From NCBI RefSeq assembly GCF_900102375.1, contig NZ_FNBO01000013.1:1-64000 (forward strand): a stretch of 64,000 nt of DNA, in the 5' to 3' direction. Position 1 is the first letter of the stretch. Every line of letters begins with the position of its first letter. The notes below the pieces were generated by a model that had not been told where the DNA came from, did no database searches, and saw nothing but the letters and a program-made list of their open reading frames with translations. This document shows, in pieces, positions 8,233 through 58,533 of this stretch. The DNA is from Halorubrum xinjiangense (GTDB lineage Archaea; Halobacteriota; Halobacteria; Halobacteriales; Haloferacaceae). The translations under genes and the position numbers were made by a program.

Positions 8233-8787
8233 CTATCCGATCCTGTTCCGACGCGTCACCGTCCGGTGTATCAGGCCGGAGACGCCGAAGAGGGCCGCGA
8301 AGAGGACCGAGTACGCGTACCCGGAGACGCTCGCGAACGGGACGGTTCCGATCGCCGCGGCCCCGCCGAGCAGCCCGCAGACGACCGCGAGCCCCACGTA
8401 GTACTCGCTCCAGAGGATCTCGTTTTCGGAAACCACTTCGAGGTACACGTCGAGTCGACGGCTCTCCTCGGTCAGCGAGACGATCCCACGGTCGGACTCG
8501 TAGTCGATGAACCCGCTCGCGGCCAGCTTCGGCAAGTGCGACTGGTGGAGGGCTGTGTAGACGCGCTTCCGCTGTTTGTATGTCACCTCGTTGACGTCGA
8601 GGTCGTTCTCCCACGCGGCCAGCTGCTCCGCGATGTCTCTCACGCGGGCGTCGTCGCCGTGCTCTTTCAGATACGTGATCACGTTCCGTCGACGTCGGTT
8701 GCTCAGCGCGGTGAACACCTCGTCGCGCGAGGGGCCGTTCTCCTCGCTCGACACCGTTTCTTCTTGAAAGTGTAGTTGGGGTGACAT
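8233..8787 (-). CDS. Membrane-anchored winged-helix regulator (DUF7344-like)
   Basis: A 184-residue haloarchaeal protein. Residues about 20-110 form a winged helix beginning DEVFTALSNRRRRNVITYLKEH, continuing through YTALHQSHLPKLAASGFIDYES; the order matches ArsR/DUF7344-type regulators. The last 50 residues hold two hydrophobic segments (GLAVVCGLLGGAAAIGTV and YSVLFAALFGVSGLIH), so the DNA-binding part is probably tethered to the membrane. A second protein of the same architecture is at 10574-11134. Target genes are unknown. A palindrome upstream (8818-8827) may be its own operator. Confidence 0.8.
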   Translation of the reverse strand: MSPQLHFQEETVSSEENGPSRDEVFTALSNRRRRNVITYLKEHGDDARVRDIAEQLAAWENDLDVNEVTYKQRKRVYTALHQSHLPKLAASGFIDYESDRGIVSLTEESRRLDVYLEVVSENEILWSEYYVGLAVVCGLLGGAAAIGTVPFASVSGYAYSVLFAALFGVSGLIHRTVTRRNRIG

Positions 8788-10038: not shown

Positions 10039-10258
10039 CCAGCCGCTCGTTTATAAGTGGTTGCTGATGGAGCATCGATGTATTCCTCCAAAGTCACAGC
10101 CGCTCGGCGCTAATTCGCTGCTGTGGTGAACGCCTCCAAAGCCCCAGCCGCTCATTTATAAGTGGTTGCTGATGGATCGGCGGCGAACACAGCCAAAGCC
10201 CCAGCCGCTCATTTATAAACGGTTGCTGACGGATCACCGGTGAACATCTTCAAAGCCC
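10039..10258 (-). repeat. 57-base tandem units of intergenic element, copy A
   Basis: Units of the form CCAGCCGCTC-ATTTATAAG-TGGTTGCTGATGG begin at 10039, about 10096, 10144 and 10201, and the next CCAGCC joins the long stem at 10259. Spacing is 57 bases except for one unit shortened to 48. Each full unit contains a TTTATAA box; the second is degenerate. The same 57-base spacing is found beside the three other copies of the element. Confidence 0.85.
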
Positions 10259-10259
10259 C

Positions 10260-10541
10260 AGCCGTGAGGGGCGCGCACGCTCGCTGCGCTCCTCAGTCGG
10301 TCGCTTCGCTCCCTCCTTGCGGTGCTTGCTTCGCCTCCGCGCCCCTCACGGCTGCCCCTTTGAGTCCCGCCCCGCACAGCAACCGCAGCCTCACGCCTCC
10401 CCAGCCTCGTCACCGGACTACGTCCGGTTTCAAGCGAGAGCTTCGCTCTCGCCCTGTCGGTGGTCCTCCGCGTCGCTCCGGACCACCGACTCCCTCGCAC
10501 GCGCCGGCCGCAGCGTCATGTCGTCATGTTGTTTATAAATA
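10260..10541 (-). ncRNA. Structured intergenic element, copy A (candidate RNA or mobile repeat)
   Basis: One of four related elements in the window; element orientation is on the minus strand. Stem P1 pairs 10260-10275 with 10338-10353 (16 perfect base pairs, arm AGCCGTGAGGGGCGCG). The block GCTGCCCCTTTGAGTCCC adjoins it, then CCTCCCCAGCCTCG. Stem P2 pairs 10457-10466 with 10480-10489. This copy alone has two extra hairpins inserted at about 10412-10452 (CCGGACTACGTCCGG and GCGAGAGCTTCGCTCTCGC). The distal end reaches TTTATAAAT at about 10531. It lies between two convergent genes. RNA nature is inferred from compensatory changes between copies. Confidence 0.55.
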
Positions 10542-10573: not shown

Positions 10574-11134
10574 TCAGCTTCGGCGCCGCGAGCGCAGGCC
10601 GTTGCGTCCGGCCGGGAACTGCCGGAGCACGGAGAAGCGGTTGACCCACAGCTGGTACGCGCCGGTGAGGGCGAACGCGCCGAGCGAGAGGCTCGTCCAG
10701 AGGACCGGGTCGATCGCGGCGGCGATCGGGGCTTCGAGCAGGATCGCGAGCAGGATCGTCAGCGACGCGACGCCGAGCGCGCGGTACAGCTCCGACCACG
10801 TCACCCCGCCTTTCGCGACGATCTCGGTGTAGAGGGCGACGTCCCGCGCGTGTCGCGACAGCTCGATCGTCTGCGTCTCTCGGTCGTACTCGATCACGCC
10901 GACCTCCTCCAGTTTCGGTAGGTGCGTCTGGACGAGCGAGGAGTACACGCTCTCCCGGCACCGCTTCGGCGGCGGGCTCTCGCCCGTCTCGCGATCCGCC
11001 ACCAGTTCGGACAACTCGTGGACCGTCACCACGCCGCCGACGCTCCCGAGCTGTTCGAGTGCGCGCCGACGGCGCTCGTTCGCGAGGATGGCGTACACCT
11101 GCTCTGCCGGAAGGATGTCGGGTCGGTATTTCAT
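10574..11134 (-). CDS. Membrane-anchored winged-helix regulator (DUF7344-like)
   Basis: Same architecture as the protein at 8233-8787: a winged helix beginning AEQVYAILANERRRRALEQL, with YSSLVQTHLPKLEEVGVIEYDRE near the middle, then two C-terminal hydrophobic segments (LGVASLTILLAILLEAPIAAAI and LWTSLSLGAFALTGAYQLW). I chose the ATG at 11134, giving 186 residues, because a TATA-like TATATGTA at 11201-11208 puts transcription start near 11180; an in-frame ATG at 11185 would add 17 residues unlike the family. It is divergent from the TasA-like cluster and may regulate it, but nothing in the sequence proves that. Confidence 0.8.
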   Translation of the reverse strand: MKYRPDILPAEQVYAILANERRRRALEQLGSVGGVVTVHELSELVADRETGESPPPKRCRESVYSSLVQTHLPKLEEVGVIEYDRETQTIELSRHARDVALYTEIVAKGGVTWSELYRALGVASLTILLAILLEAPIAAAIDPVLWTSLSLGAFALTGAYQLWVNRFSVLRQFPAGRNGLRSRRRS

Positions 11135-11185
11135 GGATGCGGGTCCGACGCTCCGCGCGATACGGAGATCGGTCGTTGACGCCAC

Positions 11186-11587: not shown

Positions 11588-13054
11588 ATGAACCCGGACA
11601 CAAACGACACCATCGGACTCTCGCGGCGCAAGCTGCTCGCCGGCCTCGGGGCCGTCGGCGTGGCCTCCGCGGGCGCGGGACTCGGGACGACAGCGTACTT
11701 CAACGACACGGAGACGTTCGAGGGCAACACGCTCACCGCGGGCGAGCTCGATCTCAAGCTTGACTACCGCGCCACGTATGCGGGCGGGACCGGACGCATC
11801 GACGAGGTCAACGGCTGGTATCCGGACTTTGACGTCGTCGAGGAGGAAGAGGGGATCTACCTCATCGGCGAGGCCCCGAGCATCGACGAGCCTGACGCGT
11901 GGGAGGACGAAGTCCAGACGCGCGACTTCTGCCTGCCCGACGTGGGACTGGTCAACGGCGACGAGATTCCGGTCTTCGTCCTCGAAGACGTGAAGTCCGG
12001 CGACTGCGGCGAGGTGACGATCAGCCTCCACATCTGTGACAACCCCTCGTGGGTGTGGATGAACGGCGAGCTGACCGAGAACGCACAGAACGGCTACTCG
12101 GAGCCCGAGCTGGAGGCGCTCGAGGACCTGGAACTCTCCACCGATGACCCCGAGGGCGACGGGCAGCTCGCCGACGCCATCGACGTGACGATGTGGTACG
12201 ACGAGAACTGCAACAACGTCCTGGACGTCGACGCCGAGGAAGCGGGAGATTCGGTGTGCGTTCAGCTCGTGATCGACACGTCCGGATCGATGGGCGGAAG
12301 CCGCATCGCAAACACGAAAAGCGGCGCGAAACAGCTTGCGGCAACCATTCTCGATGCGAACCCCGACAACCAGGTCGGCGTTACGGAGTTCAGCAGCACA
12401 GCCGACACGCCGCAACCGCTGACTGACACCTTTAGTGCCGTCGAGACCGCGATCGATGGGCTCAACGCGAGCGGTGGTACCAACGCTCAGGCCGGCGTGG
12501 ACGCCGGACAGGCCGAACTCGAGAACTGCCCCCACGACAACCGCGTGATGGTCGTCTTCGGCGACGGCGACATCAACACCGACGGCAGCGAGGCGAAAGA
12601 CGCCGGGACCGAGATCTTCGCGATCGGCGTCGGCGGCGCGAGCTTCGACGACCTCAGCGACCTCGCCAGCGATCCCGCCGACGAGCACGTGTTCTTCGCG
12701 AACGACGACGACGCCATCGAGCAGCTCTTCGGACAGGTCGCCGAGACGATCACCGCCGGCGAGGAAATCATCTTCGAGGGATCGCTCGCCGGGGCGATGG
12801 CGGTACTCTCGGAGGGGATCGCGCTCGACGGAAACCGGTCTGTCGACGGTCGACAGCCCTACGAGGGCGGACTCACCCAGTGTATCGGCTTCGAGTGGTG
12901 CCTGCCGGCCGAGGTCGGCAACGAGGTCCAGACCGACTCCGTGGCCTTCGATCTCGGCTTCTACGCCGAGCAGTTCCGGCACAACGACAGCCCGGACGTG
13001 TCGTTCAACGGAACGGACGTCGACAGCAACAGCACCGGAAACGTGTCCCAGTAG
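11588..13054 (+). CDS. SipW-dependent TasA-like exported protein with nested VWA domain
   Basis: A 488-residue exported protein. The twin-arginine motif LSRRKLLAG (R13-R14) is followed by a hydrophobic stretch and AYFNDTETFEGNTLTAGELDL, the signature of SipW-processed TasA/camelysin-type proteins. A TasA-like beta-sandwich follows. It is interrupted after IDVTMWYDENCNNVLD by a VWA domain (about residues 220-395) with the metal site DTSGS near residue 230, and resumes at EEIIFEGSLAGAMAVLSEG, ending with AFDLGFYAEQFRHN. The paralogue at 13187 has the same flanking strands with no insertion. TasA relatives form extracellular fibres in bacteria and bundling pili in some archaea; VWA domains bind ligands through a metal ion. 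A fibre or adhesin role is inferred. Confidence 0.85.
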   Translation: MNPDTNDTIGLSRRKLLAGLGAVGVASAGAGLGTTAYFNDTETFEGNTLTAGELDLKLDYRATYAGGTGRIDEVNGWYPDFDVVEEEEGIYLIGEAPSIDEPDAWEDEVQTRDFCLPDVGLVNGDEIPVFVLEDVKSGDCGEVTISLHICDNPSWVWMNGELTENAQNGYSEPELEALEDLELSTDDPEGDGQLADAIDVTMWYDENCNNVLDVDAEEAGDSVCVQLVIDTSGSMGGSRIANTKSGAKQLAATILDANPDNQVGVTEFSSTADTPQPLTDTFSAVETAIDGLNASGGTNAQAGVDAGQAELENCPHDNRVMVVFGDGDINTDGSEAKDAGTEIFAIGVGGASFDDLSDLASDPADEHVFFANDDDAIEQLFGQVAETITAGEEIIFEGSLAGAMAVLSEGIALDGNRSVDGRQPYEGGLTQCIGFEWCLPAEVGNEVQTDSVAFDLGFYAEQFRHNDSPDVSFNGTDVDSNSTGNVSQ

Positions 13055-13165
13055 ACACGCGACTCCGAGCGGGACACCCGCTCGCCCCCCGGGCGATACT
13101 CGCTCGGTTCCCGGTTCGGCGCCTTCGGGCGGCCGACACGGCGGTTCGCGACCGCCGACGGGAGT

Positions 13166-13177
13166 TCCCTTCGGGGA
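13166..13177 (+). promoter_or_regulatory. Palindrome overlapping the ribosome-binding region
   Basis: TCCCTTCGGGGA ends nine bases before the ATG of the next gene. Its right half, with the bases after it (GGGGATGAT), resembles a Shine-Dalgarno sequence, so the hairpin could mask the ribosome site. A near-identical TCCCTTAGGGGA stands at the same distance before the third gene. Confidence 0.45.
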
Positions 13178-13186
13178 TGATACACA

Positions 13187-14512
13187 ATGAACGACGACAC
13201 TATCGGACTATCGCGGCGCAAGATGCTGGTCGGACTCGGTGCGGTCGGCGTGGCCTCCGCGGGCGCGGGCCTCGGCACCACGGCGTACTTCAACGACACC
13301 GAGACGTTCACGAACAACGAACTGACCGCCGGCGAGCTGGACCTGTTCGTCCACGTCGACTACTCCGAGGACCAGGGTAGCTACGCGCAGTACTCCACCC
13401 CCGACGGGACCTTCATCGACGGCAACGTCGTGGGCGGCGGGGAGGGAGAACCCCTCAGTATCCAAGTCTCCGACCTGAAGCCCGGCGACTCCGGCGAGGG
13501 CGAGTTCTGCTTCTCGATCGTCGACAACCCGGCGTATATGTGGATGTGCGGCGAGCTGACCGCGAACGAGGAGAACGGACAGACCGAACCCGAGACGGAC
13601 GTCGACACGACCGGCGGCGACCCCGGCGAGGGCATGGGCGAGCTCGCCGACGCGATGGAGGTTACCATCTCGTACTGCACTGAGGTGGAAGGCGAGACCG
13701 TCATCGGCGAGGAGATCATCTCCGACTCGCTGGCGAACGTGATGCTCGCGCTCCAAGCCGGCGTCCCGCTCTCCGGCGACGGTGACTCGAGCGCTCCCCT
13801 CGACGGCCGCGCGCCCTTCGAGGGCGTCGATTCGCCGTTCGTCGACGAGGTACCGAACATCGCCGAGCAGTGCGTCTGCGTCGAGTGGGAGGTCCCGGTC
13901 GAGGTCGGCAACGAGATCCAGACGGACTCGGTCGCGTTCGACTTCGAGTTCTACGCGGAGCAGTCGCGGCACAACGACGGGACGAACAACCCCTGCGTCG
14001 ACGAGACCGTCGTCACCGCGTACGACAACGACCACAAGGGCCGGCCCCTGGCCAACCCGACCGACGGTAACGTCTACACCAGCGTCTCCTACGGCGAGGA
14101 CCAGGTCGTCCTGAGCTTCACCTTCGTGGACGACGACGACGGCGTGGACTTCCTCGACACCGCGGACTACTCCAGCACGAATCTCCCGGTCGCCGTCGAC
14201 GCGGACGCCGACGGCACCCACGACTGGCAGCTCATCTGGAACCCGAGCGCGGCGCTCCCCGACGACCCGTTCGGCTACCAGGAGAACAACGGCGGGACCT
14301 ACAGCTCGTCGATGTCGCTTCCGGCCGGATTCGCGGCGGAGAAGTTCGGGAACACGATCGTGTTCGGCGTCCCGCGCAGCGAGATCGCCTCGACCTTCCG
14401 CCTGCTCGCGTTCGGCAGCACCGGCGGTGAGGGGCCGATCGCGAAGGTCAACGACGACCCCGCGTCCCTGGACTTCTACAACAGCGCCAACGCGGTGGAG
14501 TTCAGCGAGTAA
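13187..14512 (+). CDS. SipW-dependent TasA-like exported protein with extra C-terminal domain
   Basis: A 441-residue protein starting with the Tat motif LSRRKMLVG (R10-R11) and the SipW-type segment AYFNDTETFTNNELTAGELDLF. The TasA-like domain runs to FDFEFYAEQSRHNDG near residue 267 with no VWA insertion. The remaining 170 residues form a second, beta-rich region unlike its paralogues (DNDHKGRPLANPTDGNVYTSV ... NSANAVEFSE), possibly a binding domain. It lies 132 bases after the first paralogue. Part of a five-gene family cluster with its own peptidase; likely a structural or minor component of the same surface structure. Confidence 0.82.
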   Translation: MNDDTIGLSRRKMLVGLGAVGVASAGAGLGTTAYFNDTETFTNNELTAGELDLFVHVDYSEDQGSYAQYSTPDGTFIDGNVVGGGEGEPLSIQVSDLKPGDSGEGEFCFSIVDNPAYMWMCGELTANEENGQTEPETDVDTTGGDPGEGMGELADAMEVTISYCTEVEGETVIGEEIISDSLANVMLALQAGVPLSGDGDSSAPLDGRAPFEGVDSPFVDEVPNIAEQCVCVEWEVPVEVGNEIQTDSVAFDFEFYAEQSRHNDGTNNPCVDETVVTAYDNDHKGRPLANPTDGNVYTSVSYGEDQVVLSFTFVDDDDGVDFLDTADYSSTNLPVAVDADADGTHDWQLIWNPSAALPDDPFGYQENNGGTYSSSMSLPAGFAAEKFGNTIVFGVPRSEIASTFRLLAFGSTGGEGPIAKVNDDPASLDFYNSANAVEFSE

Positions 14513-14584
14513 CGCCCGGCGACCACCTCCCACACCGGACCCGCGCGGGCGGCCGGGACGACGGTTCAACTCCGTCGGTGGGAC

Positions 14585-14596
14585 TCCCTTAGGGGA
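14585..14596 (+). promoter_or_regulatory. Palindrome overlapping the ribosome-binding region
   Basis: TCCCTTAGGGGA ends nine bases before the ATG of the third TasA-like gene, exactly as its counterpart at 13166-13177. Conservation of sequence and spacing in otherwise divergent intergenic DNA suggests a shared control of translation or transcription. Confidence 0.45.
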
Positions 14597-14605
14597 ATTA
14601 CAATC

Positions 14606-16351
14606 ATGGCAGACAACAAGAAATTCGACACGATCGGACTGTCGCGGCGTAAGATGCTGGCCGGCCTCGGCGCGGTCGGTATCGCCTCGGCGGGCGCGGG
14701 CCTCGGCACCACGGCGTACTTCAACGACACCGAGTCGTTCGAGGGCAACCAGCTAACCGCCGGCCAGCTCGACCTGCTGGTCGACTGGCAACAGACGTAC
14801 GACTTCGGCGAGGGCGACACGTTCGTCAGCGCGCACCCCGACCACGACGGCGACGGCGAGCAGTCGGTCGATATCGACGGCGAGGTGTTCACCTACAGCG
14901 ACTTCCCGGACGAGAGCGACGAGGACAGCAACGGGGCGAACCTCCCCGTGCTCGACTGCGACAACATCCCGCCCCTCTCGGAGGCGTACTTCAACGTCGA
15001 CCCCGTCACGGGCGAGGAGATGGAGACGCTCGTCCAGTTCTCCGACGTGAAGCCCGGCGACTCCGGCGAGATCACCTTCTCGCTGCACCTCTGTGACAAC
15101 CCCGGCTACATCTGGATGCAGGCGGGCAACGTCAGCGAGTCCGGCGGCGCGTTCACCGAACCCGAGTCGCTCGTGGATCCCGAAAACCTCGGCGACCTCG
15201 GCGACGCCATCGAAGCGCGGCTCTGGTACGACGAGGACTGCGACAACGTGTACGACGGCGCGGAGCCGGTCGACATCATGCTGACGCTCGACTTCTCGGG
15301 CTCGATGCTGTACGACCAGTACGGCGGCGTCGTTAACACCGACGAGATTGCGATCAACGGGGGCACCTACCCCGAGACGACGAAGATCGACCTCGTCGAG
15401 CTCGGCACCCGGCAGTTCATCGACTTCCTCCAGAACGCGAACGCGGACGTTCAGGTCGGCGTCGCGTACTTCGACGGCGACAGCGACGGGACCCCCCGGA
15501 TCGGGCTACTTCAGGGTCTGACGACCGATCTGAATACTGTCGACAGTGCTCTCTCCGGCCTCCGTCAAAAGCTCGCGAACGTCGTGAGTGGTTCGACGAA
15601 CGACCCAAATCCCACGGGTAGTCCGGCCGTTAACGAGGGAGATCCTGATCCGTACTCAAACGCAGATGACATCGCGACCGGCACGTACATCGGCGAGGGT
15701 GTCGACGTCGCGCAGGAAGAGCTCACCGACAACGGCCGAAGCGGCGCCGCAAAACGTAACATCGTCCTCTCGGACGGCGAATCGTTCAACGGTTCCGGCG
15801 GCTCATCGTTCGCCTCGCCGGTGGATGCTGCGGACAGCGCGCGAGCCCCACCAAGCGGAGCCATCGCCCCGTCCCCGGGCTCAGTTGAGACCGACGTCTA
15901 CACGATCAACGTGAACGGCAGCGCCAGCACGCTCCTCGCGATGGCCGGCCCCGCCGGTGGGGCGGGCGGCGACCTGCTGTTCTTCAACGACCTCGACGAC
16001 CCGCTGAACATCCCGACGGTGTTCGGCAATCTCGCGGCGCAGGCGACCCAGGAGAAGGTCATCATGGAGGACACGCTCGCGAACGTCCTCGCCGAGCTCG
16101 CCGACGGGAACGGGATCCCGCTCGACGGCAACCGCGCGACGCTGTACGACGAGCTCAACGACCCGGCCGACGACCCGGACCGCGACGCGTTCCGCGGCGA
16201 CGGCGTGATGCACTGCATCGCGCTCTCGTGGGAGCTCCCCTCCGAAGTGGGCAACGAGGTCCAGGGCGACACGCTCGGCTTCGACCTCGGCTTCTACACC
16301 GAGCAGGAGCGTCACAACGACGGCGCCGGACCGGGACAGGCTCCCGCCTGA
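14606..16351 (+). CDS. SipW-dependent TasA-like exported protein with nested VWA domain
   Basis: At 581 residues this is the longest of the simple paralogues. Tat motif LSRRKMLAG (R14-R15), then AYFNDTESFEGNQLTAGQLDLL. The TasA-like fold is interrupted after IEARLWYDEDCDNVYDGAE by a VWA domain with metal-site motif DFSGS near residue 230, and resumes at EKVIMEDTLANVLAELADG, ending FDLGFYTEQERHNDG. The insertion point matches that of the 11588 protein. Two stretches, at about 15500-15680 and 15700-15870, use less GC-biased codons than their surroundings, so part of the VWA region may have been acquired or recombined. Neighbours and export route suggest a surface adhesin. Confidence 0.83.
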   Translation: MADNKKFDTIGLSRRKMLAGLGAVGIASAGAGLGTTAYFNDTESFEGNQLTAGQLDLLVDWQQTYDFGEGDTFVSAHPDHDGDGEQSVDIDGEVFTYSDFPDESDEDSNGANLPVLDCDNIPPLSEAYFNVDPVTGEEMETLVQFSDVKPGDSGEITFSLHLCDNPGYIWMQAGNVSESGGAFTEPESLVDPENLGDLGDAIEARLWYDEDCDNVYDGAEPVDIMLTLDFSGSMLYDQYGGVVNTDEIAINGGTYPETTKIDLVELGTRQFIDFLQNANADVQVGVAYFDGDSDGTPRIGLLQGLTTDLNTVDSALSGLRQKLANVVSGSTNDPNPTGSPAVNEGDPDPYSNADDIATGTYIGEGVDVAQEELTDNGRSGAAKRNIVLSDGESFNGSGGSSFASPVDAADSARAPPSGAIAPSPGSVETDVYTINVNGSASTLLAMAGPAGGAGGDLLFFNDLDDPLNIPTVFGNLAAQATQEKVIMEDTLANVLAELADGNGIPLDGNRATLYDELNDPADDPDRDAFRGDGVMHCIALSWELPSEVGNEVQGDTLGFDLGFYTEQERHNDGAGPGQAPA

Positions 16352-16592: not shown

Positions 16593-17375
16593 ATGACACA
16601 GAAAGACACACATCTCACGCGGCGGGAGGCACTCGCGGGCGTCGGAGCCGTCGGCTTCGTGACCCTCGGCGCCGCAAGCGGTCGGTCGACGGGCAGCTGG
16701 AACGAATACTCCGACTACACGTACGCGCAGTCCGACTCCACCCCCCCGTGGGACCTGCTGGTCGGCTGGCGGCGCACCGAAAACGGAACGCAAGTCGATT
16801 CGAGCCCCACCGACGCCGAAGACGACGTCGAAAGCGACGGAATCCGTCTCGTCGACCTCGAGAACGCGCTTCCCGGCGACTACGGTACCGCGAGCGTCGG
16901 GCTCCAGCTCGACGACCCCGCGGGCGCGGCCCCGGACGGTGTCCGGGTGTGGTTCCGGCTCAAGCTCCCGGACCCGCTCGACGATCCCGCGAGCGTCGCG
17001 CTCGCCGAGCGCATCCATCTCGATATCCGGTACGACACCGGCTTACTCGGGATCGGCGCCTGCGCGGGCGCCGAGAGCGATTTCGCCGGCTACGGTCGGG
17101 AGATTGCCAAGGGAACGCTCGCCGACTTAGTCGCCGGCCCGCTGGCGGACGGGATCGAACTCGACCCGACCCGGCTCGGTGACGGCTGTCTCACGACCGA
17201 CGAGCGGCGCTGTCTGATCTTCACCTGGGAGTTCGACTCTACCGGCGGCAACGCCGGAAAGGGTGGGATCGTCGACTTCGACGTCGACTTCGTCGCGGAT
17301 GAATGCGGGACCGAGGGGAACCCCTTCGAGGGGAACGCCGTGACGGGCGGCGACGCCACCGGAGGGAGCGCATGA
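16593..17375 (+). CDS. Short TasA-like Tat-exported protein
   Basis: A 260-residue protein with Tat motif LTRREALAG (R10-R11) and a short hydrophobic segment. The TasA-like region includes DLENALPGDYGTASVGLQL, LHLDIRYDTGL-type strands and REIAKGTLADLVAGPLADGIELD, corresponding to the EEIIFEGSLAGAM strand of its larger paralogues. It ends without the AEQ-RHN motif. Its TGA overlaps the ATG of the next gene, the first of four such overlaps that tie the last five genes together. A TATA-like CATACATA lies about 70 bases upstream, so this may be the first gene of the coupled operon. Confidence 0.78.
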   Translation: MTQKDTHLTRREALAGVGAVGFVTLGAASGRSTGSWNEYSDYTYAQSDSTPPWDLLVGWRRTENGTQVDSSPTDAEDDVESDGIRLVDLENALPGDYGTASVGLQLDDPAGAAPDGVRVWFRLKLPDPLDDPASVALAERIHLDIRYDTGLLGIGACAGAESDFAGYGREIAKGTLADLVAGPLADGIELDPTRLGDGCLTTDERRCLIFTWEFDSTGGNAGKGGIVDFDVDFVADECGTEGNPFEGNAVTGGDATGGSA

Positions 17376-18850
17376 CCCCCGGAGACGACGGAGCGGGACG
17401 CCCGAGCGGCCTGAGCCGTCGCCAGCTGCTCGCCGGGATCGGCGGCGTCGGCGCCGTCGGGATGGCGAGCGGCCTCGGTACCGGGGCGTACCTCGCGGAC
17501 CGCGAGACGTTCTCGAAAAACACGTTCGGCTCCGGCACGGTCGAGCTCCTCGTGAACGGTGCGACCACCGACGGCACCATCAACGTCAACGTATCGGGCA
17601 TCAACCGCGGCGATTCGGACCGCGAACGGTTCGAAATCGGCGCCCAGACGAACCCGGTTCGGGTCTGGCTCGCGACCGAGTGCGTGCCGAGCGACGCGCT
17701 CTCCCGCGCGCTCGAAGTCGATCTCAGGGCCGATGGCGCGTCGCTGACCGGGGGGTACCGCCCCCTCGCGGACGTCCGGGCCGACCTGCTCACCGGCGAG
17801 CGGATCGACGACGGGTGCCTCGACCCCGAGGACGAGGACACGATCATGGTCGACGTGTACTGGCGGCTCCCGGCCGACGCGCCCGACGCGGCGGCAAACA
17901 GTTCGACGTCGCTCACGTTCCTGCTGTACGCCGAGCAGTGCCGTCACGTCGACGAGCCGAACGCGGTGGGACCAGCTTCCCTCGACGAGGCGAGCGCAGC
18001 GGCGTCGAACCCCTTCGCCGACCGCGTCTGCGACGAGAACCAGTGTGTCCCGTGTGCGGGCGAAAACGGCGTCAAAATCGGTGGGCTCACGCTTCGGTGC
18101 CTCAGTGCCGACCCCATCGATCTGACCGTCAGAGCCACCGGCGGCGGCGCCGGCGGGCGCGGCAACGGCGGAACCGAGATATTCGCGGCCACGGTCCAGC
18201 CGGACGAGGAGTTCGTCCTCGACGGCGCGGACTCGGGGACGAACGACGGCTCGGGCTGGATCGGTCCAGAACTCTCCCTCGACGACGGGGCCGGCCCGTC
18301 AAGCAAGGGCGACGGCGGTGTCAACATCCACACGAGCTGTTCGGATCCCCTCGGCCCCGGCGACGTCTACGGCGACTTCGAAATCGTCGCGGTGACGACG
18401 ACCGACGGGAAGCTGGTCTGTGAGAGCGGCACCGGCGGTGACCGCGACGACGACACCCTCGACGACCCCGAAACCGACCCCGAGTGCGTCGTCTGTGACA
18501 GGGGGAATGACGTCTCGCTTGCGACCCTTGACGTCCGCTACCGCGGCGCCGTCGACGCGACCGTCTCGGTCGTCTCAACGAAGGGCGGCACGGGCGGCGA
18601 ACTGTTCGCCGGAACCGTCTCACGGGGTGACGTCTTCACCCTCAACGGAAAAGACGTCGACCGACCCGGCAAGGGGACGGACAAGCTCGGCCCGGAGGTC
18701 GAGATCAGTATCGAGGGCGAGCAGAGACCTGTCGCGATCCACGTGAGCTGCTCGCAGCTGCTCGCGGTGGGCGACGTCTACGGCGACTTCGAGATCGACG
18801 GCGGAACGACAACGGGCGGTGAGCCGCTGTGCGGCTCGGAGGCGAACTGA
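17372..18850 (+). CDS. TasA-like exported protein with two C-terminal repeat domains
   Basis: 492 residues. The start at 17372 overlaps the previous stop (ATGA) and puts the Tat motif LSRRQLLAG (R16-R17) at the N-terminus; the SipW-type segment is AYLADRETFSKNTFGSG. A TasA-like domain ends at LYAEQCRHVDEPN near residue 194. Two copies of a domain of about 120 residues follow, each opening with CVxC, carrying VxVxxTxGGxGG-type strands and closing with IH-SCS-(8-9)-GDVYGDFEI. Similar domains occur in haloarchaeal surface proteins. Its last base is shared with the ATG of the signal peptidase gene. Probably an anchoring or binding subunit of the structure. Confidence 0.8.
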   Translation: MTPGDDGAGRPSGLSRRQLLAGIGGVGAVGMASGLGTGAYLADRETFSKNTFGSGTVELLVNGATTDGTINVNVSGINRGDSDRERFEIGAQTNPVRVWLATECVPSDALSRALEVDLRADGASLTGGYRPLADVRADLLTGERIDDGCLDPEDEDTIMVDVYWRLPADAPDAAANSSTSLTFLLYAEQCRHVDEPNAVGPASLDEASAAASNPFADRVCDENQCVPCAGENGVKIGGLTLRCLSADPIDLTVRATGGGAGGRGNGGTEIFAATVQPDEEFVLDGADSGTNDGSGWIGPELSLDDGAGPSSKGDGGVNIHTSCSDPLGPGDVYGDFEIVAVTTTDGKLVCESGTGGDRDDDTLDDPETDPECVVCDRGNDVSLATLDVRYRGAVDATVSVVSTKGGTGGELFAGTVSRGDVFTLNGKDVDRPGKGTDKLGPEVEISIEGEQRPVAIHVSCSQLLAVGDVYGDFEIDGGTTTGGEPLCGSEAN

Positions 18851-19788
18851 TGAAAAACAGACTCACATCACCACGGACGAAACGGGCGGCGAACGTACTC
18901 GGGATCGTCCTGTTGATCGCGCTCGTCGCGCCGTTCGCGGCGTTCGCGGTCCCCGAGATCGTCGGCGCCGACGAGAGCTTTGTCGTGCTCACGGCGAGCA
19001 TGACGCCAGCGATCGCTCCGGGCGACGTCGTGATCGTCGCGGACCGCGACCCGGCCGCAGTCGCCGTCGGCGACGTGATCACCTTCTCCCGCGGAATGGG
19101 CGACGTGCCCGTGACGCATCGGGTGATCGACGTCGTCGACGAGGGGGGAACCCTCGCGTTCGAGACGATGGGCGACGCGAACGAGGGGCCCGACCCCGCG
19201 CTCGTGCCCGCGGCGAACCTCGTCGGCGTGGTGACGCTGACGATCCCGTACATCGGGTACGTGATCCAGTTCGCCGGCACGCGGGCCGGGTTCGTCGCGC
19301 TCGTGGTCCTCCCCTTCGGCCTGCTCGCGGCCAACGAGCTGTGGTCGTTCCTCCGCGACGCCAGCGAGAAGGAGGCGACCGAGCCGGAACCGGTGGCTGT
19401 CGCGGCGGCCGACGCCGCGGCCGACGCCGCAGCCGACGCCGAGGACGCGTCGAGGGTCGCGAACGAGCCCTCGTCAGACGAGGCTTCCGCCGTGGCCGAC
19501 TCCGGCGGCGTGTCGGTCGCGACCGTCGGCGGGGCGACCGCCGTGCTGGCCGGGTTCGCGCCGTACGCCGCGTACGTCGCGTTCGAGCTCCGCACCGCTG
19601 CGGCGATCGCGATGGCGGTCGCGGTGACGACGCTGCTGCTCGGCGGACTCGCGGTCTGGGTGCCGGCGAGCGGCGTGCTCGATCGGGGCGCACCGGCCGA
19701 CGACTCCCGGGCGGACGCCTCCCGTGCGCCGTCTGCCCTCCCGGAGGAGGCCGCCGCGCCGGCCGACGGCGCGGGGGAGGGAGACTGA
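18850..19788 (+). CDS. SipW-like type I signal peptidase
   Basis: A 312-residue membrane peptidase of the archaeal/ER type. An N-terminal TM segment (residues 15-35) precedes the nucleophile Ser50 in LTASMTPAIAPGDVV and His90 in VPVTHRVIDV; a Ser-His pair, instead of the bacterial Ser-Lys, is typical of SipW and archaeal signal peptidases. After the catalytic domain come another TM segment (FVALVVLPFGLLAANELWSF), an acidic Ala/Asp linker and two further hydrophobic stretches near the C-terminus, a longer tail than in general archaeal enzymes. Its place between the TasA-like genes and coupling by TGATG overlaps on both sides indicate that it processes them. Confidence 0.9.
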   Translation: MKNRLTSPRTKRAANVLGIVLLIALVAPFAAFAVPEIVGADESFVVLTASMTPAIAPGDVVIVADRDPAAVAVGDVITFSRGMGDVPVTHRVIDVVDEGGTLAFETMGDANEGPDPALVPAANLVGVVTLTIPYIGYVIQFAGTRAGFVALVVLPFGLLAANELWSFLRDASEKEATEPEPVAVAAADAAADAAADAEDASRVANEPSSDEASAVADSGGVSVATVGGATAVLAGFAPYAAYVAFELRTAAAIAMAVAVTTLLLGGLAVWVPASGVLDRGAPADDSRADASRAPSALPEEAAAPADGAGEGD

Positions 19789-20837
19789 TGAGCACCGAGC
19801 GTCCGGTCGTCGCGTTGCTCGTCGCCGTGATGGTGGTGTGGGCCGTCGCCTTCGGCGGCGGTTACACCCTCGCGGTGTTCACCTCCACCGCCGAGGTGAC
19901 CGTGAGCTTCGAGACGAACGAGAGCTTCGAGACGAACCTGTCGACGACCGTCACCGCCCCTGACGTACCGAGCGCGGCGGGCGACGACATCAACGGTTCG
20001 GACGGAGACCTTGAGAGTCCCGACGACATCAACGGCTCTGACGGAGACCTCGATACCCCCGAAGAGCTCAACGGTTCGGACGGGGACCTCGATAGTTCCG
20101 ACGACATCAACGGTTCGGACGGAGACCTCGAGAGTCCCGACGACATCAACGGCTCTGACGGGGACCTCGATACCCCCGAAGAGCTCAACGGCTCGGACGG
20201 AGACATCGATAGTTCCGACGACATCAACGGTTCGGACGGAGACCTCGAGAGTCCCGAAGAGCTCAACGGTTCGGACGGAGACCTCGAGAGTCCCGACGAC
20301 ATCAACGGCTCGGACGGAGACTTCAACGACAACAAGCCGGGACTACCGGACGGCGCCGGTTCTGACTCCGGCGACGCTGAGCCCGTGGACGCCGACACCG
20401 GCGAAGCGGACGAATCGCCTGACGAGGAGGAGGGCGAAACGCCCGCCGGTGAGGGCGAAAGCGAAGGCGACGGATCGGGCGGCGAAGCGAATGGCGAGTC
20501 CGGCGAAGCGGACGAATCGCCTGACGAGGAGGAGGGCGAGACGCCCGCCGGTGAGGGCGAGAGCGAAGGCGACGGATCGGGCGGCGAATCGAATGGCGAG
20601 TCCGGCGAAGACGCAGAGGCGGACAGCGGCTCCGACGAGGGAGAGGAAGCCGAAAGGGATCCCGTCGAGGACGGCGGGGACGACGCTGATGCGACGACCG
20701 GAGGCCTCGACGACGACGCTGACGCGACGACCGGAGGCCTCGACGCCGACGCCGACGCGACGACCGGAGGCCTCGACGACGACGCCGGGGACGGTTCCGA
20801 CGCCGACGACCCCGAGTCGTCGGTCGACGAGGCGTGA
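19788..20837 (+). CDS. Membrane-anchored acidic repeat protein of the TasA/SipW operon
   Basis: 349 residues. An N-terminal hydrophobic segment (VVALLVAVMVVWAVAFGGGYTLAVFTST) resembles the SipW-type signal (AxFTSTAEVTVSFE). The rest is repetitive: nine 13-residue units of the form DDINGSDGDLESP or EELNGSDGDLDTP, then two copies of a roughly 34-residue acidic unit (ADESPDEEEGETPAGEGESE), then three copies of DADATTGGLD. No globular domain is visible. It could be an elongated, cation-binding stalk. Start chosen at the ATG that overlaps the peptidase stop; the frame is open upstream but overlaps that gene entirely. It overlaps the next small gene by GTGA. Confidence 0.78.
   Translation: MSTERPVVALLVAVMVVWAVAFGGGYTLAVFTSTAEVTVSFETNESFETNLSTTVTAPDVPSAAGDDINGSDGDLESPDDINGSDGDLDTPEELNGSDGDLDSSDDINGSDGDLESPDDINGSDGDLDTPEELNGSDGDIDSSDDINGSDGDLESPEELNGSDGDLESPDDINGSDGDFNDNKPGLPDGAGSDSGDAEPVDADTGEADESPDEEEGETPAGEGESEGDGSGGEANGESGEADESPDEEEGETPAGEGESEGDGSGGESNGESGEDAEADSGSDEGEEAERDPVEDGGDDADATTGGLDDDADATTGGLDADADATTGGLDDDAGDGSDADDPESSVDEA
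19983..20333 (+). repeat. Nine in-frame 39-base tandem repeats
   Basis: Nine units of 39 bases encode the 13-residue repeat. Units alternate between a GACGACATCAACGG and a GAAGAGCTCAACGG opening in a higher-order pattern (D-D-E-D-D-E-D-E-D), which suggests growth by duplication of a three-unit block. Copy number is likely to vary between strains. Confidence 0.92.
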
Positions 20838-22003: not shown

Positions 22004-22252
22004 TTTATAAATGAACGGTGCGGTGGCGCGTGCCTGCGAGGCCGCCTCGCGGCCGAGCAGTACGCGCGAGGGAGTCGGTGGTCCGGAGCAACGCGGAGGA
22101 CCACCGACGAGGCTGGGGAGGTGTGAGGTGCGGTCGCGGTGCTGTGCGGGGCGGGACTCAAAGGGGCCGCCGCGAGGCCGCAGTAGGCGACGTAAGCACC
22201 GCAGCGAGCAACGCGAGCGAGGAGCGCAACGAGCGTACTGCGGCCTCGCGGC
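22004..22252 (+). ncRNA. Structured intergenic element, copy B (candidate RNA or mobile repeat)
   Basis: Element orientation is on the plus strand. It opens with ATTTATAAAT, then TGCGGTGGCGCGTGCCTG. Stem P3 pairs 22040-22045 with 22049-22054; P2 pairs 22075-22084 with 22098-22107; the conserved block GGCGGGACTCAAAGGGG follows near 22150; P1 pairs 22169-22185 with 22236-22252 (17 perfect base pairs, arm GCCGCGAGGCCGCAGTA). The arm sequences differ from the other copies, yet pairing is kept. It lies between convergent genes. Confidence 0.55.
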
Positions 22253-22535
22253 TGGGGCTTTGGAGCTGTCCGACGCCGATCCGCCGACAATCATTTATAA
22301 ACGAGCGGCTGGGGCTTTGGAGCTGTCCGACGCCGATCCGCCGACAATCATTTATAAACGAGCGGCTGGGGCTTTGGAGCTGTCCGACGCCGATCCGCCG
22401 ACAATCATTTATAAACGAGCGGCTGGGGCTTTGGAGCTGTCCGACGCCGATCCGCCGACAATCATTTATAAACGAGCGGCTGGGGCTTTGGAGCTGTCCG
22501 ACGCCGATCCGTTGACGACTATTTATAAACATCCA
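22251..22535 (+). repeat. Five 57-base tandem units of intergenic element, copy B
   Basis: Units start at 22251, 22308, 22365, 22422 and 22479, beginning GCTGGGGCTTTGG and containing ATTTATAAA. The first four are identical; the fifth diverges in its right half (GTTGACGACTATTTATAAAC). Because 57 is a multiple of three, all frames stay open and produce a meaningless 19-residue repeat. Identity of the four units shows recent amplification. Confidence 0.95.
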
Positions 22536-57240: not shown

Positions 57241-58533
57241 CTATCGCCTCCCTCGGGGCGGCGACCGGTTGCCCCGGGGCGACGATCGGCTGCCGCGGGA
57301 CGGGAAGCGCGCTAGCGCTTCGATCGCCGCGTCTTCGGTACAGTAGAACGCCACGAAGCTGATCGCGAACTTCTCGTCGTTCGCGGTTTCGACCGTGAGG
57401 CTCCCGTCGATCCCCTCGAAAGACTGGACTTCCAGCTCGCGGCCGCTCTTGACCAACGCGTAGAGGTCGCAGTACGCCGTGTCGAAGGAGGCGGCCATCG
57501 GCTCGAACGGCTCACCCGGCTTGCTCACGAAGGAACCGGGGGTGTACGCGACGGTGTCGGCAGCGGCTCCCTCCGGGACGAAGTCGTACGCGAGGCACTC
57601 GCCAGTGTCGGGATCGGTCTCGACGCAAGCGAACTCGTACTTCGCGAGCTGGCCGGCGGCGGAGCAGTCGACGCACTCCTCACAGACCTCGCTGATGACC
57701 GCGTCAAGCTCCGAGCCGAGGTTCGACGCGTCCTGAACCGAGACGAAGTCGTCGGCACTGCTGGCGATCTCGTCTCGGAGATAGTCATCGAAGCCGGCGA
57801 CGTTCTCGCCGATACCGACCGCAATGACCCGGCGACCGGCGTCTTTGATCGCGGTCGCGATACTGGTGGTCTCGTCGATCTCACCCTGTTCACCGGCGGT
57901 CCCGTTCTCGCTGCCTGTCGATCCGCCGGTGTACGCGAACGTCCCGTACGGGAACGTCGTGTCGTCGTCGGGCGGCGCCGCGCCGTCGCCGACGACGCCG
58001 CTCTCGTAGTTCGGTCCGCCGTCCGTGATCAGGATGATGATCTCCGTTCCGCCGCGGCCCTCCTGTTCAAGAATCGCATTCGAGAAATCCAGTGCGCCGG
58101 GCATGTGCGTCGCGTTCTCCTGTTGCGGGACGCTCGCGGGGATGCCGGCTCGAATCGCCGAGACGTTGCTCGCGGTCGCGAAGTCGAGGAGGTTCCCCGG
58201 GCCGTACTCGAACGCGGACGGCGCGTCGCCGAACGTGACGAGACCCAACTGGACGTCTTCCGGTACGACGGCGAGGAAGCTGTCCACACCGCTCTGGATG
58301 TCTCCCCACGTGCCGGCGGACCGTATCGAGCCCGAGTAGTCGAGTGCGACGACGACGTCGACGTCGCCCCCGCACGTCTCGATCAACTGCTCGTCGGCCG
58401 CGGCGACGCGGGTGAAGAACGGCAGACCGGCTCCGGCGACTGCGAGCGCGCCGGCAGCACCGGTCGTGCGGAGGACGCTGCGCCGTGAGAGGGGAATAGT
58501 TCGGTTCGCTCTATCTGTGTTGGTTGTTGTCAT
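57241..58533 (-). CDS. Tat-exported VWA domain protein
   Basis: 430 residues. Tat signal PLSRRSVLRTTGAAGALAVAGAGLP, cleavage after VAAA. A VWA domain (about 55-290) has the metal site DYSGS, then VTFGDAPSAFEYG and ILITDGGPNYES; two acidic inserts are visible. A cysteine-bearing region (CEECVDCSAAG) and a beta-rich part follow. The final 22 residues are strongly basic (RFPSRGSRSS ... PPRGRR), unlike the acidic remainder, and abut the tRNA-Phe repeat array, so the original C-terminus may have been replaced. Not part of the TasA-like cluster and lacks the SipW-type motif. Confidence 0.82.
   Translation of the reverse strand: MTTTNTDRANRTIPLSRRSVLRTTGAAGALAVAGAGLPFFTRVAAADEQLIETCGGDVDVVVALDYSGSIRSAGTWGDIQSGVDSFLAVVPEDVQLGLVTFGDAPSAFEYGPGNLLDFATASNVSAIRAGIPASVPQQENATHMPGALDFSNAILEQEGRGGTEIIILITDGGPNYESGVVGDGAAPPDDDTTFPYGTFAYTGGSTGSENGTAGEQGEIDETTSIATAIKDAGRRVIAVGIGENVAGFDDYLRDEIASSADDFVSVQDASNLGSELDAVISEVCEECVDCSAAGQLAKYEFACVETDPDTGECLAYDFVPEGAAADTVAYTPGSFVSKPGEPFEPMAASFDTAYCDLYALVKSGRELEVQSFEGIDGSLTVETANDEKFAISFVAFYCTEDAAIEALARFPSRGSRSSPRGNRSPPRGRR

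Follow-up and report, generated by a model that had tools for sequence, protein, structure and literature searches.

Two genes of Halorubrum xinjiangense encode TasA-like, SipW-type subunits that carry a VWA domain nested in a hairpin of their scaffold, as predicted by a structural model for the one and as seen from the sequence for the other, while a third paralogue lying between them lacks this domain. All three lie in the window, by which we mean the whole stretch of 64,000 nucleotides analysed here (GCF_900102375.1, contig NZ_FNBO01000013.1, positions 1 to 64,000, forward strand). The nested-VWA architecture is real, recurrent and well defined; its function, from processing, polymerisation and outward orientation to the binding of metal and ligand, is what we infer. 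We propose, with a probability of roughly 0.6, that these proteins are SipW-processed, donor-strand-assembled TasA-like surface fibre subunits bearing metal-dependent VWA adhesion heads. This proposal is based on the nesting, the TasA-like model, the conservation of the MIDAS, a donor-like segment, an operon with a SipW-like peptidase and the divergence of the class A VWA.

A VWA domain between two strands of the scaffold

The three genes lie on the forward strand at 11588..13054 (488 aa, class A), 13187..14512 (the paralogue without VWA) and 14606..16351 (581 aa, class B; alignment of n=36), and their open reading frames coincide with the coordinates first assigned to them. Their twin-arginine, SipW-type signals are near-identical, each protein is over the cut-off of TIGR04088 (SipW-type signal), and the scaffold is common to all three. 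In the 13187 protein the scaffold is followed by a C-terminal extension (13991..14509, forward strand) in which no Pfam match was found; the whole model, scaffold and extension together, weakly matches the CBM9 structure 1i82 (Foldseek E 2e-3).

PF00092 matches the 11588 protein at residues 227-382 with an E-value of 5.5e-20. The 14606 protein itself gives a weak VWA_2 match (E 6e-4, under the curated cut-off), and PF00092 is found at E<=0.01 in 21 of the 36 proteins of its class, the best at 1.8e-15. Compared by hhalign, the VWA profiles of classes B and A align over their full length (probability 99.9, E 1e-33), and the nested class B domain, as delimited by alignment, spans residues 224-480 (15275..16045, forward strand). 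BLASTP of the 11588 against the 13187 protein returns two collinear pieces, 6-204/3-163 and 391-467/174-264, between which lie 186 residues in the former and 10 in the latter; the 11588 and 14606 proteins align from end to end with large gaps across the VWA region. The flanking strands read as quoted in the initial annotation, namely WYDEN (residue 203) before and EEIIFEG (residue 392) after the VWA of the 11588 protein, WYDED (207) and EKVIMED (483) in the 14606 protein, and VTISYC (159) and EEIISDS (175) in the 13187 protein.

The AlphaFold2 model of the mature 11588 protein, made with 44 related sequences (residue number equals model number plus 34), has a pLDDT of 83 and a pTM of 0.80. In this model a first hairpin strand (residues 199-205, model 165-171; 12182..12202, forward strand) precedes a VWA domain at residues about 223-389 (model elements 189-355, pLDDT mostly 85-97; 12254..12754, forward strand), which is followed by the second hairpin strand (residues 394-399, model 360-365; 12767..12784, forward strand). 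Foldseek matches the model to VWA/I domains, the pilus adhesin SpaC among them, and the sequence-profile matches of the VWA-bearing protein include the fimbrial subunit Mfa5. The model of the 13187 protein (residue number equals model number plus 32) predicts an uninterrupted hairpin with strands at residues 158-167 and 170-181 (model 126-135 and 138-149; 13658..13729, forward strand), the two scaffold halves being joined through a 2-residue turn, which agrees with the earlier claim that the same two strands are adjacent in this paralogue. Since the equivalent strands close as a hairpin here, the VWA of the 11588 protein takes the place of that turn. A VWA forming a separate N- or C-terminal domain would have spoken against nesting, and the 11588 model instead places it between the hairpin strands. 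For the 14606 protein, the sequence comparisons argue for the same nesting in the scaffold hairpin.

Recurrence, divergence and the MIDAS

A scan of genome contigs gave 59 loci and a class-wide search, in which the 11588 protein was matched in 82 of 194 genomes with scaffold-only matches counted, added 19, so that the 78 loci and the window make 79 sources; these are not counts of independent species, because the 19 class-wide loci may duplicate genomes among the 59. Iterated profiles over all of these recovered 299 scaffold copies, in which the spacer between the scaffold halves is mostly 4-70 or 160-300 aa long. The VWA profile matches 106 copies, and in 105 of them the domain lies within the spacer, the single exception (L044:8668-10612) having a C-terminal VWA; given this position and the distribution of spacer lengths, the placement of VWA at one hairpin is not a matter of chance. 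These copies confirm that the same nesting occurs in other genomes and, together with the BLASTP split, the model of the 11588 protein and the profiles, bear out the claim that VWA occupies a common scaffold point in the 11588 and 14606 proteins.

Nested VWA domains were found in 74 of the 79 sources, one in each of 42 and two in each of 32, and in a 393-genome sample of the phylum only partial matches were found outside the class Halobacteria. Seven more VWA open reading frames do not match both scaffold halves; of these, six share the WYD..C/G.N junction preceding the VWA and the seventh is a separate Tat-type VWA protein of the window (57241-58533, reverse strand), the sole other VWA over the Pfam cut-off in the genome. 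Insertions of other kinds at other points of the scaffold, or additions at the C-terminus, occur in further copies; in four (L013:7638-9387, L014:7656-9363, L031:4668-6288 and L065:6481-8521), none of which has a VWA, such an insertion lies in the N-terminal half.

Trees built from the scaffold alone do not join VWA classes A and B as sister groups, and they place the 13187 class among the VWA-bearing rows; the VWA label has to change twice on a thinned tree and six times on a fuller one. The thinned tree, in which support is uneven and the root assumed, would be accounted for by a single gain and a single loss, and the 13187 class may possibly have lost its VWA secondarily rather than representing the ancestral form. 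A single-clade origin of all VWA-bearing scaffolds was disfavoured, though not firmly, by an AU test (p 0.03) that used a quick tree, 200 columns and a group picked after the first tree had been seen.

The MIDAS of the 11588 protein comprises DxSxS as DTSGS (residues 230-234; 12275..12289), Thr298 (12479..12481) and Asp326 (12563..12565), all on the forward strand, and in the class A alignment A2 (n=44) its columns are D in 44, S in 39 (T in 5), S in 44, T in 42 and D in 38 (N in 6). These T and N replacements count against our proposal. Class B has DFSGS (15290..15304, forward strand, in the 14606 protein), with D, S, S and T invariant in 36 of 36 and the final D in 35 of 36. Since the MIDAS residues are largely conserved in both alignments, metal binding by the VWA is plausible; of the metal-dependent binding head proposed by the initial annotation, it is the metal dependence that this conservation favours, and the binding head itself stays a part of our proposal.

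In class A the VWA is more divergent than the scaffold, with a pairwise identity of 0.38 against 0.50 and 0.57, while in class B it is conserved nearly as well (0.58 against 0.63-0.64). The near equality in class B would suit an explanation that we consider unlikely, in which the subunits assemble and the VWA is structural, its MIDAS connecting subunits or adjacent fibres in bundling or matrix cross-linking, with no external ligand. TasA fibres do bundle by means of a protruding loop, the outermost bundling loop being 174-177 (PMC9674648), but the faster divergence of the class A VWA relative to its own scaffold argues against a purely structural role.

Likeness to TasA and organisation of the operon

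As modelled, the scaffold of the 13187 protein is a TasA fold, Foldseek returning the TasA fibre 8aur_A (E 1.5e-6) and TasA 5of1_A (E 8.2e-4) ahead of every other solved structure, with modest TM-scores of 0.41-0.44 by target for a query that includes a second domain. The structural route to TasA thus succeeded where that through sequence failed: a sequence-profile search with these proteins gave no match to TasA, and hhalign of the scaffold profile with a TasA sequence identical to 8aur_A gave a low-confidence alignment (probability 9.9). NF046066 scored E 0.021 against the 13187 protein, or 14 bits against a cut-off of 450. In the low-confidence profile alignment the VWA insertion point corresponds approximately to the TasA turn near residues 118-123, not to the bundling loop 174-177.

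TasA subunits polymerise through an N-terminal donor strand (PMC9674648). By analogy, the segment AYFNDTETFEGNTLT of the 11588 protein (11693..11737, forward strand), which is conserved in A2, is a candidate donor strand. The N-terminal segment, residues 1-16 of the monomer model, has a pLDDT below 50, which is compatible with an unpaired donor strand, although no proof of one, and could alternatively come from scarce data. The haloarchaeal proteins resemble TasA of Bacillus subtilis (8AUR, 5OF1) in the predicted fold of the scaffold, in the SipW-type signal with a linked SipW-like peptidase and in having an N-terminal segment in the donor position, but TasA is without a VWA and the haloarchaeal proteins are known here from sequences and models. 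Work cited in PMC9674648 describes the bundling pili of Pyrobaculum, an archaeal filament, as relatives of TasA in structure, and we set them beside the present proteins on the strength of that description.

Downstream of the head genes come a TasA-like gene without the AYFSD segment (16593..17375 in the window), often a TasA-like DUF7467 gene, and then the gene for a SipW-like peptidase. The product of 16593..17375 (forward strand) is TasA-like, being matched by the scaffold profile from position 21, and, as judged from the N-termini of relatives, lacks the AYFSD signal/donor motif and has a conserved YTYAQ motif; no family match was found among Pfam and TIGR/NCBI family models. This protein, which has a Tat-like RR signal and a YTxYTYAQ motif and precedes the peptidase in most loci, could form the start or end of a fibre. 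Its gene is overlapped by ATGA by the next one (17372..18850, forward strand), encoding a TasA-like domain with a DUF7467 match (PF24269, E 1.7e-18) and a TIGR04088 match over cut-off. The SipW-like signal peptidase I (18850..19788, forward strand) is matched by TIGR02228 over cut-off (E 5e-30) and by the SipW model NF046067 under its own cut-off (E 2e-27). In 47 of the 59 contig loci, both the motif-less TasA-like gene and the SipW-like gene neighbour the head genes, and all four SipW-type signals over the family cut-off in the genome are within the operon.

Directly after the peptidase gene, 19785-20837 encodes a strongly acidic protein and contains 39-bp repeats (DDINGSDGDLESP). Tandem repeats of 57 bp occur at 22248-22530 (5 copies) and 10136-10264 (2.3 copies), with TTTATAAACG in both units. 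Upstream of the operon, 8233-8787 and 10574-11185 (reverse strand) each encode a DUF7344 protein, and these two proteins are possible regulators.

The operon contains a number of distinct subunits, none of them evidently a repeated major subunit, which would be in keeping with monomeric or small-complex surface proteins that form no fibre and use the TasA-like fold to carry binding domains. We hold this to be quite unlikely, as there is a conserved N-terminal segment where TasA has its donor strand, the top structural match is polymerised TasA, and a SipW-like peptidase is linked. That the proteins are metallopeptidases of the camelysin type (Pfam Peptidase_M73), the VWA being accessory, is highly improbable and was rejected: PF12389 does match, over cut-off for the 13187 protein only, but the matches extend over only some 37 residues, from the final part of the signal peptide through the first strand, and HExxH, taken as a proxy for the metalloprotease site, is absent from all five proteins.

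Proposed adhesion heads and known VWA adhesins

Returning to the proposal of a fibre with adhesion heads, we suggest that the operon's SipW-like peptidase probably cleaves the twin-arginine SipW-type signals of both VWA-bearing proteins, and that the N-terminal segment so released probably serves as the donor strand of the following subunit, which would build up a mixed fibre. The VWA with its MIDAS in the scaffold hairpin would be the head through which the fibre adheres in a metal-dependent way, positioned either at its tip or along its length. A head of this bulk may not suit every fibre position.

VWA adhesins on pili are already known, namely RrgA, SpaC, Mfa5 and PilB. SpaC and RrgA belong to sortase-assembled bacterial pili, whose scaffold is different. 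In both the VWA forms part of the pilus adhesin, as indicated for SpaC by the Foldseek match and for RrgA by its mention in PMC8179133. The minor fimbrium subunit Mfa5 (6TNJ, 6TO1) resembles the present proteins in having a VWA in a fimbrial subunit, but its fimbria is bacterial. PilB of Streptococcus sanguinis likewise has a VWA with MIDAS grafted onto a filament subunit, and shows that such a domain can act as an adhesin, one that fits only at the tip; however, PilB is a type IV pilin and its VWA is attached through a loop as the C-terminal module instead of sitting inside a hairpin (PMC8179133). In the open literature searched, we found no description of a VWA on a TasA-like subunit and nothing on SipW or camelysin in haloarchaea.

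More tentatively, the hairpin could be a socket at which lineages retain, alter or lose a VWA head against a constant background of donor-strand scaffold and operon, yielding hetero-fibres with several binding heads. The system is tractable, with the SipW-type set of the genome in one operon and MIDAS mutants simple to make. The architecture points to adhesive heads displayed on fibres or on surface proteins. If our proposal is true, it would add a further filament scaffold with a VWA head to sortase pili, type IV pili and Mfa-type fimbriae, and TasA-type surface fibres of haloarchaea would adhere through an integrin-like VWA, tying archaeal biofilm or cell-cell contact to a common adhesion fold.
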